From NCBI RefSeq assembly GCF_005473905.2, contig NZ_CP061336.1, positions 3,402,501 to 3,466,500 on the forward strand: 64,000 nucleotides of DNA, given 5' to 3'. This document shows, in pieces, positions 42,005-45,277 of this stretch. The translations under genes and the position numbers were made by a program. Source of the DNA: Ruminiclostridium herbifermentans (GTDB lineage: Bacteria > Bacillota > Clostridia > Acetivibrionales > DSM-1351). The first letter of the stretch is position 1. Each line of letters starts with the position of its first letter. The notes beneath the pieces were generated by a model. The model was not told the DNA's origin, did not search any database, and saw nothing but the letters and a program-made list of their open reading frames with translations.

Positions 42005-42880
42005 TTACTTATATTTCTTCATCTCCTCAATTAGTTTCCAAATATTACACCCTATATTTGTTACTAATTCCTCTTCATCATTAGCAAATTGTTTTGCACG
42101 TTCTATTGCATCGTCAATATGCATCAAATAATTCTTTTTAAAATTAATACCACTTTTACCATGATGCATTTTTTCAGATACCTCTTTACTATTAAAAGTA
42201 TGTTTGTCAGTCACTTTTGGATTCTTTTGTATTATATCAAGCCTTTCTTTATATTCTTCTTTTACATCAGATAGATGTAAAAGAAGCCAAAACTCAAAAC
42301 AAGGATTAACTATGTAACATTTATAATTTCTAGCTTTATCTTTGCAGTATTGAATACATTCTATCATGTTAGTTTCTGAATGAGTCTGAATGTCTCTATC
42401 AATTAAAATGCAAAACTCATCTAAATCCTTATCATATTTCTGTAAATACCTTCTATAATTAATATCATATCCTATCTTCATCAAATCTGTTACAAAAGCA
42501 TTTTTCTTTTTTTTAGGAATATCATTAGGATTGTTTAGATATTTTAAGATAAAGTCATTTCCATATTTATTTATAAATTCATTTGGTATGTCCTGAATTA
42601 AATTTTCCTTTCCAAGGTTACGTAATCTAATATATTCTTCTAATAATTCTATTACTTGCTGTGGAGCACAGTTAGTGTCCTTACTCCCCCTCTTTAATAC
42701 TTCTACATCTACTTTAGAATTAATTCCAAGTTTTTTTCTATTAGCTGATATACCTTCAAAGTATTCTTTTTCTGTTGCATTACCTTCTACAGATAAAAAA
42801 TAAATTTTTTGTGGTTCAACCTTATCTTCTTCCTTTTCTCGATCAAATGTTGTAGAAGCCAATCTATATCTATTTATCAT
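42005..42880 (-). CDS. RloB-family protein of a putative defence module (291 aa)
   Basis: RloB-type TOPRIM-like protein: FLSVEGNATEKEYFEGI (E32, E37), CILIDRDIQTH (D161, D163) and the hallmark NPCFEFWLLLHL (192-203). RloB proteins accompany ABC-type ATPases in restriction-linked and abortive infection loci, for example AbiLii with AbiLi. Metal-dependent nuclease activity is the likely effector function but is not proven for this copy. The start follows GGAGGAAG and lies 12 bases after the ATPase stop, so the two are one operon. Confidence 0.85.
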   Translation of the reverse strand: MINRYRLASTTFDREKEEDKVEPQKIYFLSVEGNATEKEYFEGISANRKKLGINSKVDVEVLKRGSKDTNCAPQQVIELLEEYIRLRNLGKENLIQDIPNEFINKYGNDFILKYLNNPNDIPKKKKNAFVTDLMKIGYDINYRRYLQKYDKDLDEFCILIDRDIQTHSETNMIECIQYCKDKARNYKCYIVNPCFEFWLLLHLSDVKEEYKERLDIIQKNPKVTDKHTFNSKEVSEKMHHGKSGINFKKNYLMHIDDAIERAKQFANDEEELVTNIGCNIWKLIEEMKKYK

Positions 42881-42892
42881 CTGCTTCCTCCA

Positions 42893-44248
42893 TTAAAATT
42901 TTTCTTCATCAAATATAGGAATTGCACCATATCTTCCTAATAAATAATCCTTTTCAATCCTTTTATCAAATCTTTCTTTAAATTTATTTAATGAATAAAT
43001 TCTTGAACTATGATCTTCCTGTCGTTCAACAAACCATATTTCATCTTGCCTTAATAATTCTAAATCCAACAAATTAGAATCATGAGTTGTGGCTATTAAT
43101 TGGCAATTACTATCCTTCGTTATGCTATAAAAACGTTCTAAAAAACGTCTTATTAAGACTGTATGAAGACTTCTGTCTATTTCATCAATCATAATTACAC
43201 TATTTCTTTTATTTTCATAAAATAGTGGAACTAAATCAAACAAACGTTTTGTACCATCTGATTCATCAGCATATTCAAATAAATCTTCAGAATTCCCATG
43301 ATTAAGAAGCATTTTGTTATATATGATATCTCCATTTTCATCTTTTCGTAAAATAAACACTTGATTATCCAGCTTAAACATTATCGGATTTTCACTAGCT
43401 TCATTTGAAATATCTATTTTAATCCTTTCTAACTCTTCCCTAGGTAAATCTTCTAATATTTTGTCAAAATCCATTGCTTGACATTGACCTTCTATAGACT
43501 CAATACCAGTGTCAAAATAACTCATTATTTTTGAAAAAAATAATTTTTTATCATTATCAGTTGCTACCTCATTTAATCCATTGTATTTAGAATTTGGAAA
43601 TATAACTATTATATTTGTAAACCATTGATACACACCTGCTATTTCTGCAAACACTTTCTGCTTATCGTTTCCTCTCAAAGCTATATCACTCAAAATGGTT
43701 TTTCTTCGAAATGATTCCGAAATATTCTCACCAAAGTCTTCTAAATAGATACGCATTCTTGTATTTTCTTCTTGTGTTCCATGAGCGATTTCTGATTCAA
43801 TATGACTAACACCACTTTCATCAACATTTCTATTAAACAAGTAAGTTTCTTCTCCATTTTTTTCTATTCTAACTAACCATTCTGATATAATTTCTTTCTT
43901 GAAATATGATATTGCTATGCCATAGGAATACTCATTCTGATTTATTATAATTCTATATTCAAATACTCCTGGTTTTTTATACTCTTCTTTATCTATTCTA
44001 AAATATTTCTTGTTCAAATCAACACTGTCAAGCCCAAAAAGCACAATTTCTCTAGAGAAATGTACCGCTTTGATTAGATTACTTTTCCCACCAGCATTTG
44101 CACCATAAATCAAACCACTTTTCAATATTTTTTTATTACCTGCTAAAAAAGTATGTTCTTTATGTCTAGAAATCTTACTTGCTATAAAAGATATACTTTG
44201 AGGTTCTTTAAATGATTTAAAATTTTTCACAGAAAAACCAACCAACAT
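42893..44248 (-). CDS. AAA_15/21-type ABC ATPase partner of RloB (451 aa)
   Basis: ABC-type ATPase with an N-terminal GFSVKNFKSF strand, Walker A GANAGGKS (49-56), signature-like DESDGTKRLFDL, Walker B VIMIDEIDRSLH and switch histidine ATTHD. This is the AbiLi/OLD-like sensor ATPase class. The start at 44248 is preferred: AAGG lies eight bases upstream and the longer frame would begin with TTG at 44281. It is only distantly similar to the ATPase at 31566-32804, so the two modules are not a recent duplication. It is divergent from the CIRCE-controlled operon. Confidence 0.82.
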   Translation of the reverse strand: MLVGFSVKNFKSFKEPQSISFIASKISRHKEHTFLAGNKKILKSGLIYGANAGGKSNLIKAVHFSREIVLFGLDSVDLNKKYFRIDKEEYKKPGVFEYRIIINQNEYSYGIAISYFKKEIISEWLVRIEKNGEETYLFNRNVDESGVSHIESEIAHGTQEENTRMRIYLEDFGENISESFRRKTILSDIALRGNDKQKVFAEIAGVYQWFTNIIVIFPNSKYNGLNEVATDNDKKLFFSKIMSYFDTGIESIEGQCQAMDFDKILEDLPREELERIKIDISNEASENPIMFKLDNQVFILRKDENGDIIYNKMLLNHGNSEDLFEYADESDGTKRLFDLVPLFYENKRNSVIMIDEIDRSLHTVLIRRFLERFYSITKDSNCQLIATTHDSNLLDLELLRQDEIWFVERQEDHSSRIYSLNKFKERFDKRIEKDYLLGRYGAIPIFDEEKF

Positions 44249-44438
44249 ATTAATGCCCTTCTTTCTACATTTCTTTAACAATTACAGCCTTTATTATATT
44301 TATACTATATTTATATTATATTGATGCTATATTATTATATTATATTGTGAATTATTCACAATTGTCAAACAAATTTTATTATTTCCCCAAAAATATATTA
44401 TTATTCAAAAATAATTTTGAGATTTTTTCACATTTATA
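44249..44438. other. Divergent regulatory region upstream of the ATPase/RloB operon
   Basis: TATA-type tracts repeat at 44290-44345. A perfect palindrome ATTGTGAAT-T-ATTCACAAT sits at 44344-44362, about 95 bases upstream of the ATPase start, and may be an operator for this operon. Confidence 0.5.
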
Positions 44439-44467
44439 TTGACAATAAATTCTATTAGTGATATCTT
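44439..44467 (+). promoter_or_regulatory. SigmaA-type promoter
   Basis: TTGACA at 44439-44444 and TATCTT at 44462-44467 with a 17-base spacer. Transcription would begin near 44474, just before the CIRCE element, as in classical groE promoters. Confidence 0.75.
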
Positions 44468-44478
44468 TTATGTAGGGT

Positions 44479-44507
44479 GTTAGCACTCCTCTTTAGTGAG
44501 TGCTAAC
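44479..44507. promoter_or_regulatory. CIRCE element (HrcA operator)
   Basis: Exact consensus TTAGCACTC-N9-GAGTGCTAA at 44480-44506 (one more G/C pair on each side). This is the binding site of the heat-shock repressor HrcA. It sits just behind the predicted start of transcription. No groES, groEL, hrcA or dnaK gene follows; the downstream genes are two small proteins at 44666 and 44942. Confidence 0.95.
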
Positions 44508-44520
44508 AAAGTGGTAAAAA

Positions 44521-44548
44521 AAAGATGGCCAATTAACCATCTTTTAAA
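44521..44548 (+). promoter_or_regulatory. 5'-leader hairpin after CIRCE
   Basis: AAAAGATGG and CCATCTTTT pair around an 8-base loop. The T run is short (TTTTAAAATG), so this may be an attenuator, an mRNA-stabilising stem or a weak terminator. It is followed by ~115 bases of leader before the first gene. Confidence 0.5.
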
Positions 44549-44665
44549 ATGAATCTGTGTTTCACAAATTCAAAGTCGCATTTGAATAGTACCATAATTA
44601 GAGTGAAACATCAATCATTTTGTAATTTATCTCTTTCCCGAGTAATTAAAGAAAGGAGAACAAAT

Positions 44666-44923
44666 ATGCAATTTGATGGAGCTAAAATAGAAGAGCAAGG
44701 AGTTACGTTTGCTATTGCTGTTGTTAAGCCTCATATTCTTTCTAGTCCAAACAAAGAGAAAATACGAATGTGGTTTACTTCATTTTTTGGAAATATTCCA
44801 ATTGTTTTAGTGGCTCAAAATTCAAGAGGCAATTTTACTTATTATGGCAGACATGATATTGTAAATTTTCTTGCTAATATCAATCCAGCAAGAATACCTT
44901 GGAAACGTTATACTACTAACTAA
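44666..44923 (+). CDS. Small CIRCE-controlled protein (85 aa)
   Basis: Not recognised. A soluble, compact protein with a hydrophobic core strand (GVTFAIAVVKPHIL) and the stretch PIVLVAQNSRGNFTYYGRHD before a C-terminal ARIPWKRYTTN. AGGAG lies eight bases before the ATG at 44666; the in-frame ATG at 44549 overlaps the leader hairpin and is unlikely. It is the first gene behind the CIRCE element and 18 bases upstream of the DUF2188 gene, so both should be induced when HrcA is titrated by misfolded protein. Confidence 0.75.
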   Translation: MQFDGAKIEEQGVTFAIAVVKPHILSSPNKEKIRMWFTSFFGNIPIVLVAQNSRGNFTYYGRHDIVNFLANINPARIPWKRYTTN

Positions 44924-44941
44924 GTAGAGAAAGGATTAATT

Positions 44942-45169
44942 ATGGCAAAACAGCATGTAATTCCTAATAATGGTATATGGCAAGTAAAACGCGAAAACTC
45001 TACTAAAGCAACAAAGAACTTTGATACTCAAAAAGATGCTATTGCTTTTGGTCGTAACATTGCCATTAATCAACAAAGTGAGTTAGTCATACATGGGCGT
45101 AATGGTCAAATACGTAATTCAAATAGTTATGGAAATGATCCTTGCCCACCAAAAGATACAAAATTTTAA
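44942..45169 (+). CDS. DUF2188 protein (75 aa)
   Basis: Matches the DUF2188 pattern: HVIPNNGIWQVKRENSTKAT, FDTQKDAIAFGR, ELVIHGRNGQIRNSNSYGND and a C-terminal PPKDTKF. DUF2188 proteins are small and conserved in many bacteria, but their function is unknown. AGAAAGGA precedes the ATG. It is the second gene of the CIRCE operon. A strong hairpin follows 13 bases later, closing the operon. Confidence 0.88.
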   Translation: MAKQHVIPNNGIWQVKRENSTKATKNFDTQKDAIAFGRNIAINQQSELVIHGRNGQIRNSNSYGNDPCPPKDTKF

Positions 45170-45181
45170 TCTTATTTAACA

Positions 45182-45218
45182 GAAAAGGTATGCTGTCAAA
45201 TCAACAGTATACCTTTTC
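45182..45218 (+). terminator. Terminator of the CIRCE operon
   Basis: AAAAGGTATGCTGT pairs with ACAGTATACCTTTT and is followed by CCGTTTTAA. Located 13 bases after the DUF2188 stop. Confidence 0.85.
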
Positions 45219-45277
45219 CGTTTTAATTCCAAAATTGTTCAAGTCAATTTCTTTTTCTTTAGGCTCCTACATTCACC

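Follow-up and report, generated by a model that had tools for sequence, protein, structure and literature searches.

HrcA binds the CIRCE operator. HrcA needs GroEL for its activity and is released once unfolded protein titrates GroEL (PMC3842655, PMC6362236). The locus described here, found in a window of 64,000 nucleotides from the genome of Ruminiclostridium herbifermentans, shares with this class I heat-shock regulon an exact TTAGCACTC-N9-GAGTGCTAA right behind a sigma-A-type promoter, at a spacing like that of groES and hrcA. It differs from the regulon in that the operator precedes genes for two small proteins of a probably mobile defence-type locus, an 85-aa protein (P1) and a DUF2188 protein, rather than for chaperones, and in that a structured leader separates operator and gene.

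Alongside the abortive-infection system AbiL (AbiLi/AbiLii), PARIS (AriA) is a related ATPase-led pair. As in AbiL, an AAA_21 ATPase gene is followed here by a gene for an RloB-type protein, and both PADLOC models match; unlike AbiL, the locus has an added divergent P1-DUF2188 operon, putatively under CIRCE control, and paired palindromes spaced by 72 bp. We know of no phage activity of this AbiL-type clade. In IetAS, a defence and maintenance system of Rhizobium plasmids, a DUF2188-P1 pair also lies divergently beside an ATPase-led two-gene module, but the effector is an S8 peptidase, the order of the small genes is reversed and there is no CIRCE. A likeness at another level comes from AbiD1 of Lactococcus lactis, where a phage protein and temperature control translation of an Abi gene (PMC2661086), as the translation initiation region limits expression of the Abi locus until an infection or stress signal arrives; AbiD1 answers a phage protein and low temperature, whereas here a heat-shock operator lies upstream of the leader. 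By its predicted folds, the leader may resemble translational riboswitches, with one strand pairing exclusively with either the outer helix or the ribosome site, but it has no Rfam match or known ligand and occurs in one gene context only. How bacterial defence loci are silenced and switched on is a largely open question.

CIRCE in front of the P1-DUF2188 operon

A sequence scan of the window at up to three mismatches yielded a single CIRCE, located at 44480-44506 on the plus strand, which reads TTAGCACTC-CTCTTTAGT-GAGTGCTAA and matches the HrcA operator exactly; shuffled sequences contain on average 0.01 sites at this threshold. The preceding sigma-A-type promoter (44439-44467, plus strand) consists of TTGACA at 44439-44444 and TATCTT at 44462-44467, separated by 17 bp. 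From the end of the -10 box to CIRCE there are 12 nt, while groES and hrcA in the same genome have 13 nt and 11 nt, respectively. The operon comprises the open reading frames of P1 (44666-44923, plus strand) and of the 75-aa DUF2188 protein (44942-45169, plus strand), and ends in a hairpin resembling a terminator, AAAAGGTATGCTGT/ACAGTATACCTTTT, and a T-rich stretch behind it (45183-45224, plus strand). Thus, the initial annotation had correctly described the promoter, the exact CIRCE just behind the predicted start site, both small genes and the closing terminator, as well as a divergent ATPase/RloB operon, on which the Pfam and PADLOC matches agree.

In the whole genome, exact CIRCEs are found at four places, namely groES, hrcA, htpG and the P1-DUF2188 locus. 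The hrcA gene itself is present behind its CIRCE (L002), named from its sequence rather than by a family search.

A search for P1 over 85,000 species genomes returned eight relatives, six of which have a DUF2188 gene directly behind P1 and, about 190 bp ahead of P1, a CIRCE with one to three mismatches. Five of these six (L008-L012) stem from metagenome-assembled genomes filed as Lachnospiraceae or Thermoflexaceae, and the sixth (L013) from Anaerovorax sp. IOR16. Including the window, CIRCE is therefore kept with zero to three mismatches in all seven loci with the P1-DUF2188 pair, so that, for close homologues, the locus passes the conservation check proposed in the initial annotation. The operator lies 12-13 nt behind the -10 box across the related loci, as at groES and hrcA; in L008 the automatic scan picked another box, but the corresponding position reads TTGACT-N17-TATCTT. 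The seven loci are kin and represent about five independent lineages, with P1 of the related loci being 68-74% identical to that of the window. In a comparison of five representative loci, identity is 96% and 80% for the arms of CIRCE but falls to 46% in its spacer, 39% in the start-site stretch and 27% between the two palindromes described below.

No CIRCE was found at about 50 P1 homologues lacking DUF2188 and AbiL, nor at 17 viral DUF2188 loci, indicating that the operator belongs to this constellation and not to either protein family. The proposed membership in the HrcA regulon was thus strengthened for the locus, where CIRCE is conserved in the promoter geometry of groES and hrcA, but does not extend to the P1 or DUF2188 families, neither of which is generally linked to CIRCE. 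Judged by its sequence, the P1-DUF2188 operon looks like a genuine HrcA target.

The four-gene unit and the company of P1 and DUF2188

The ATPase (451 aa, 42893-44248, minus strand) is AbiLi-like, with matches to Pfam AAA_21 (1.8e-31) and PADLOC AbiLi (2.8e-79). It is followed by the second gene of the AbiL-type pair, encoding an RloB-family protein of 291 aa (42005-42880, minus strand; Pfam RloB 9.3e-27, PADLOC AbiLii 1.7e-20). Two further AbiL-like ATPase matches were noted in the same genome (G000:C1:1353448 and G000:C1:589949). All seven CIRCE loci carry the ATPase, RloB, P1 and DUF2188 genes in two divergent operons, and in L008-L012 the ATPase is 69-71% and the RloB protein 69-73% identical to that of the window. 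The ATPase of L013 is more distant and comes with an RloB protein of its own, which suggests that CIRCE and leader stayed with the accessory operon as the effector diverged or was replaced. Beyond the unit, the genes vary and include, named by eye, a sugar epimerase, mobilisation and primase-like genes, tuf/fusA and a resolvase. Since these outer flanks differ and no other genome of the genus has P1, the four-gene unit is probably mobile.

Most AbiL-like systems do not have a CIRCE. Among about 12 other long AbiL-like matches, one was found at L065 only, where it precedes a different gene. There (L065 1306-1332; L091 4126-7209, genome G216), a CIRCE with one mismatch lies before an operon for an MBL-fold hydrolase, which is divergent from another AbiL-like ATPase and has its own promoter, TTGACT-N17-TATACT. 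The MBL-fold gene matches PADLOC PDC-M48B (1.4e-13). As homologues of this gene in two other genomes have no CIRCE, the second link between CIRCE and defence is suggestive only.

The predicted promoter of the ATPase-RloB operon, TTGACA-N18-TATAAT (44339-44368, minus strand), matches the consensus, and the same layout is present in L008, L009 and L011. Its spacer is filled by an operator-like palindrome, TGTGAATTATTCACA (44346-44360), which is exact at the homologous place in L008-L012. A second palindrome, TGAGATTTTTTCACA (44418-44432), has one mismatch and immediately precedes the -35 box of the CIRCE promoter. Both are of the form TGTGA-N5-TCACA, and in six of the seven loci (the window and L008-L012) they are exactly 72 bp apart; the mean identity of palindrome 2 is 87%, against the low value given above for the stretch between the palindromes. 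TTGTGA-N5-TCACA occurs at one other place in the whole genome. A global regulator of the CRP type was rejected as the binding protein on account of the N5 spacing and because this motif is almost unique to the ATPase promoter in the genome. Palindromes with at most one mismatch were also found before AbiL-like ATPase genes in L111, L112, L113 and L065, and neither P1 nor DUF2188 is present in the stretches of these four loci that were examined. The regulator is therefore more likely part of the ATPase-RloB module. The palindromes of L111, L112 and L113 hint that the AbiL family may share a conserved operator.

P1 matches PHROG 23950 and has no Pfam or NCBIfam match. Relatives were found in IMG/VR contigs, plasmids and genomes but not in sequenced phages. 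Its AlphaFold2 model is confident, with a pLDDT of 92.5; the structure search gave no match below E 0.001, and the best one, to tRNA-splicing endonucleases (E 0.0095), is weak. The model thus weakly resembles nuclease-like folds, which we regard as a lead and not as an assignment. The DUF2188 protein matches PF09954 over profile positions 1-62 of 62 (E 4.9e-25) and the phage-defence candidate PDC-S16 of PADLOC (6.9e-36). Its model is moderate (pLDDT 82.6), and the structure search returned nothing usable, with no match below E 0.001.

Outside the seven loci, DUF2188-P1 pairs are divergent from IetA-IetS on Rhizobium plasmids (L230, L232 and L233), P1 adjoins IetS in Leptolyngbya, and a DUF2188-P1 pair adjoins a restriction endonuclease in Gemmobacter. 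P1 and DUF2188 also occur apart, in prophage-type contigs, and so need not act on AbiL. This gene company across phyla points to P1-DUF2188 as a defence accessory and not as a chaperone helper, because the partners are either the AbiL-type ATPase and RloB, in all seven CIRCE loci, or IetAS, and because the DUF2188 protein is a PDC-S16 match. On the same grounds, the suggestion in the initial annotation that the two proteins are small protein-quality factors found no support, whereas its statement that this is not a chaperone operon holds, and the locus proved real and conserved.

Further small genes were seen beside P1 in other loci. A small third protein is encoded near DUF2188-P1 on the three Rhizobium plasmids, with a CxxC...HH pattern in two of them. 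P1 directly follows a small YjzC-like protein, identified by eye, in L014 (1640-2197) and L029 (3800-4261), and in L015 and L042 it stands beside a lysine-rich small protein, also identified by eye. By this arrangement of genes, P1 appears to move together with several families of small proteins.

The leader RNA

Between CIRCE and P1 lies a structured mRNA leader of about 160 nt (44507-44665, plus strand), characterised by alignment, helix tests and two alternative folds. RNAalifold and inspection resolve it into an outer helix, a side hairpin, a long central helix with a terminal hairpin, and a hairpin at the ribosome-binding site. The central helix is capped by AUUCAAA-NNCGCA-UUUGAAU. The leader hairpin reported in the initial annotation is hence real, but is merely one part of a larger conserved structure. 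Across the five representatives the leader is 71% identical, compared with 63% at third codon positions of P1. Tested against shuffled segments, the outer helix gave p values of 0.011-0.031 in L008, L009, L010, L012 and L013, with a weaker signal in L011 and the window; for the inner (P5) helix, p was 0.003-0.025 in the window, L009, L010 and L013, and there was no significance in L008, L011 and L012. The outer helix pairs via different bases in different loci (AAG/CUU, UUG/CAA and UAG/CUA). The covariation term of RNAalifold is not favourable for the automatic alignment of about five independent sequences; as the seven loci are related and fall into some five lineages, covariation in the leader is limited.

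The Shine-Dalgarno sequence of the P1 gene, GGAGA (44655-44659, plus strand), has a mean unpaired probability of 0.10 at 37°C in the window. For a UCUC strand at 44630-44633 (plus strand), the predicted folds give two alternative partners, one at the 5' end of the leader (about 44511-44514) and one at the ribosome-binding site (about 44656-44659). When the ribosome site is held open, UCUC reaches the 5' end in all seven predicted folds. Left unconstrained, four of the seven leaders (window, L009, L010 and L011) are predicted to fold with UCUC on the ribosome site, and the other three (L008, L012 and L013) with UCUC on the 5' end. The two predicted folds of the window leader differ by 3.3 kcal/mol. 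By these models, the leader may have the layout of a translational switch.

Other kinds of leader were considered. An RNA thermometer was rejected, as the predicted Shine-Dalgarno pairing is nearly constant from 25 to 48°C. The same applies to a leader peptide, given that the leader's ATG lacks a ribosome site and that the frame in the window and L013 is not kept relative to the others. A known leader RNA was likewise discarded, no credible Rfam match being obtained up to E 10. There are no credible further copies in the genome, and the core motif of the leader has ten scattered matches in viral contigs.

Possible roles of the P1-DUF2188 operon

On balance we lean towards a transferable four-gene defence-type locus, with a P1-DUF2188 accessory operon that is held by HrcA, released by stress and subject to a translational gate. 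In unstressed cells, active HrcA maintained by GroEL would sit on CIRCE and block the operon behind its start site. When GroEL is occupied by unfolded protein, as under heat, proteotoxic stress or plausibly a burst of phage protein, HrcA would come off and the operon would be transcribed. The leader would act as a second, translational gate, leaving the ribosome site free when UCUC is paired with the 5' end and closing it when UCUC is paired with the ribosome site. A locus-specific regulator on the two palindromes would tie the accessory operon to the ATPase promoter, and P1 and DUF2188 could in turn modulate or aid the ATPase-RloB module. Sequence and comparison show the operator, the geometry of the promoter, the accompanying genes, the palindromes, and a conserved leader with two predicted folds; from these we infer HrcA binding, induction, switching and an action of P1 and DUF2188 on AbiL. 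The dependence of HrcA on GroEL, the AbiD1 precedent and the anatomy of the locus together suggest that P1-DUF2188 may be a stress-released accessory of the AbiL-type module.

The arrangement in seven genomes suggests that these bacteria couple part of an immune locus to an alarm for protein-folding stress. A conserved heat-shock operator in a putatively mobile defence-type locus could make HrcA-sensed chaperonin load an infection alarm or a heat-stress safety catch, with the leader RNA and the two-site palindrome as further layers of control. More tentatively, and with some doubt, HrcA-GroEL might serve as the infection sensor itself, with phage proteins titrating GroEL and freeing CIRCE, P1 and DUF2188 arming or disarming the AbiL-type effector, and the leader providing a second checkpoint. 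If so, chaperonin titration would be a new trigger of immunity.

The safety-catch function would fall to P1 or DUF2188 if one of them silences ATPase-RloB as an antitoxin or repressor, with HrcA/CIRCE raising the silencer under heat or folding stress and thereby preventing misfire in uninfected cells. The palindromes linking the divergent promoters, the small predicted folds of both proteins and the description of IetA/IetS, the Rhizobium partner, as an antitoxin/toxin pair (PMC5006074) are in line with such a role. However, the AbiL-like pairs of L111, L112, L113 and L065 carry the palindrome without P1 or DUF2188, so that these proteins are not needed for AbiL control in general, and we consider silencing rather unlikely.

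P1 and DUF2188 could instead be ordinary heat-shock accessories, that is, small proteostasis factors merely travelling with defence genes, as an exact CIRCE in the promoter layout of groES and hrcA might suggest. This is improbable in view of the other genomes of the genus that lack P1, the different backgrounds in which the pair or P1 follows defence modules, and the other P1 and DUF2188 loci without CIRCE. It is very improbable that the operon stands outside HrcA control, with its CIRCE a mere remnant or coincidental match, since despite the two and three mismatches in L008 and L013 the operator is exact in the window, where about 0.01 would be expected even at three mismatches, and its position and arms are kept in all seven loci against diverged surroundings.

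The component families of the locus are of known kinds. In the open-licence literature, no paper joining CIRCE with DUF2188 was found, and judging by their abstracts none of the few papers containing both HrcA and phage-defence terms seemed relevant. Within this literature, the proposed HrcA-regulon wiring of a probably mobile defence-type locus together with an unassigned structured leader appears to be new.

A viral origin of the CIRCE unit was also considered and rejected, as viral CIRCEs precede hsp20-like, groEL-type or unrelated genes and no AbiL-like unit was noticed among them. In IMG/VR contigs resembling cyanophage (L129, L141, L147, L151, L162, L174, L194 and others), an exact CIRCE lies 28 nt before an Hsp20-like gene, named by eye. 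Such contigs suggest that phages place HrcA operators of the host in front of a small heat-shock gene of their own. Another viral contig has three exact CIRCEs 49 bp apart in front of a gene for a 202-aa protein (L144, 5424-5548).
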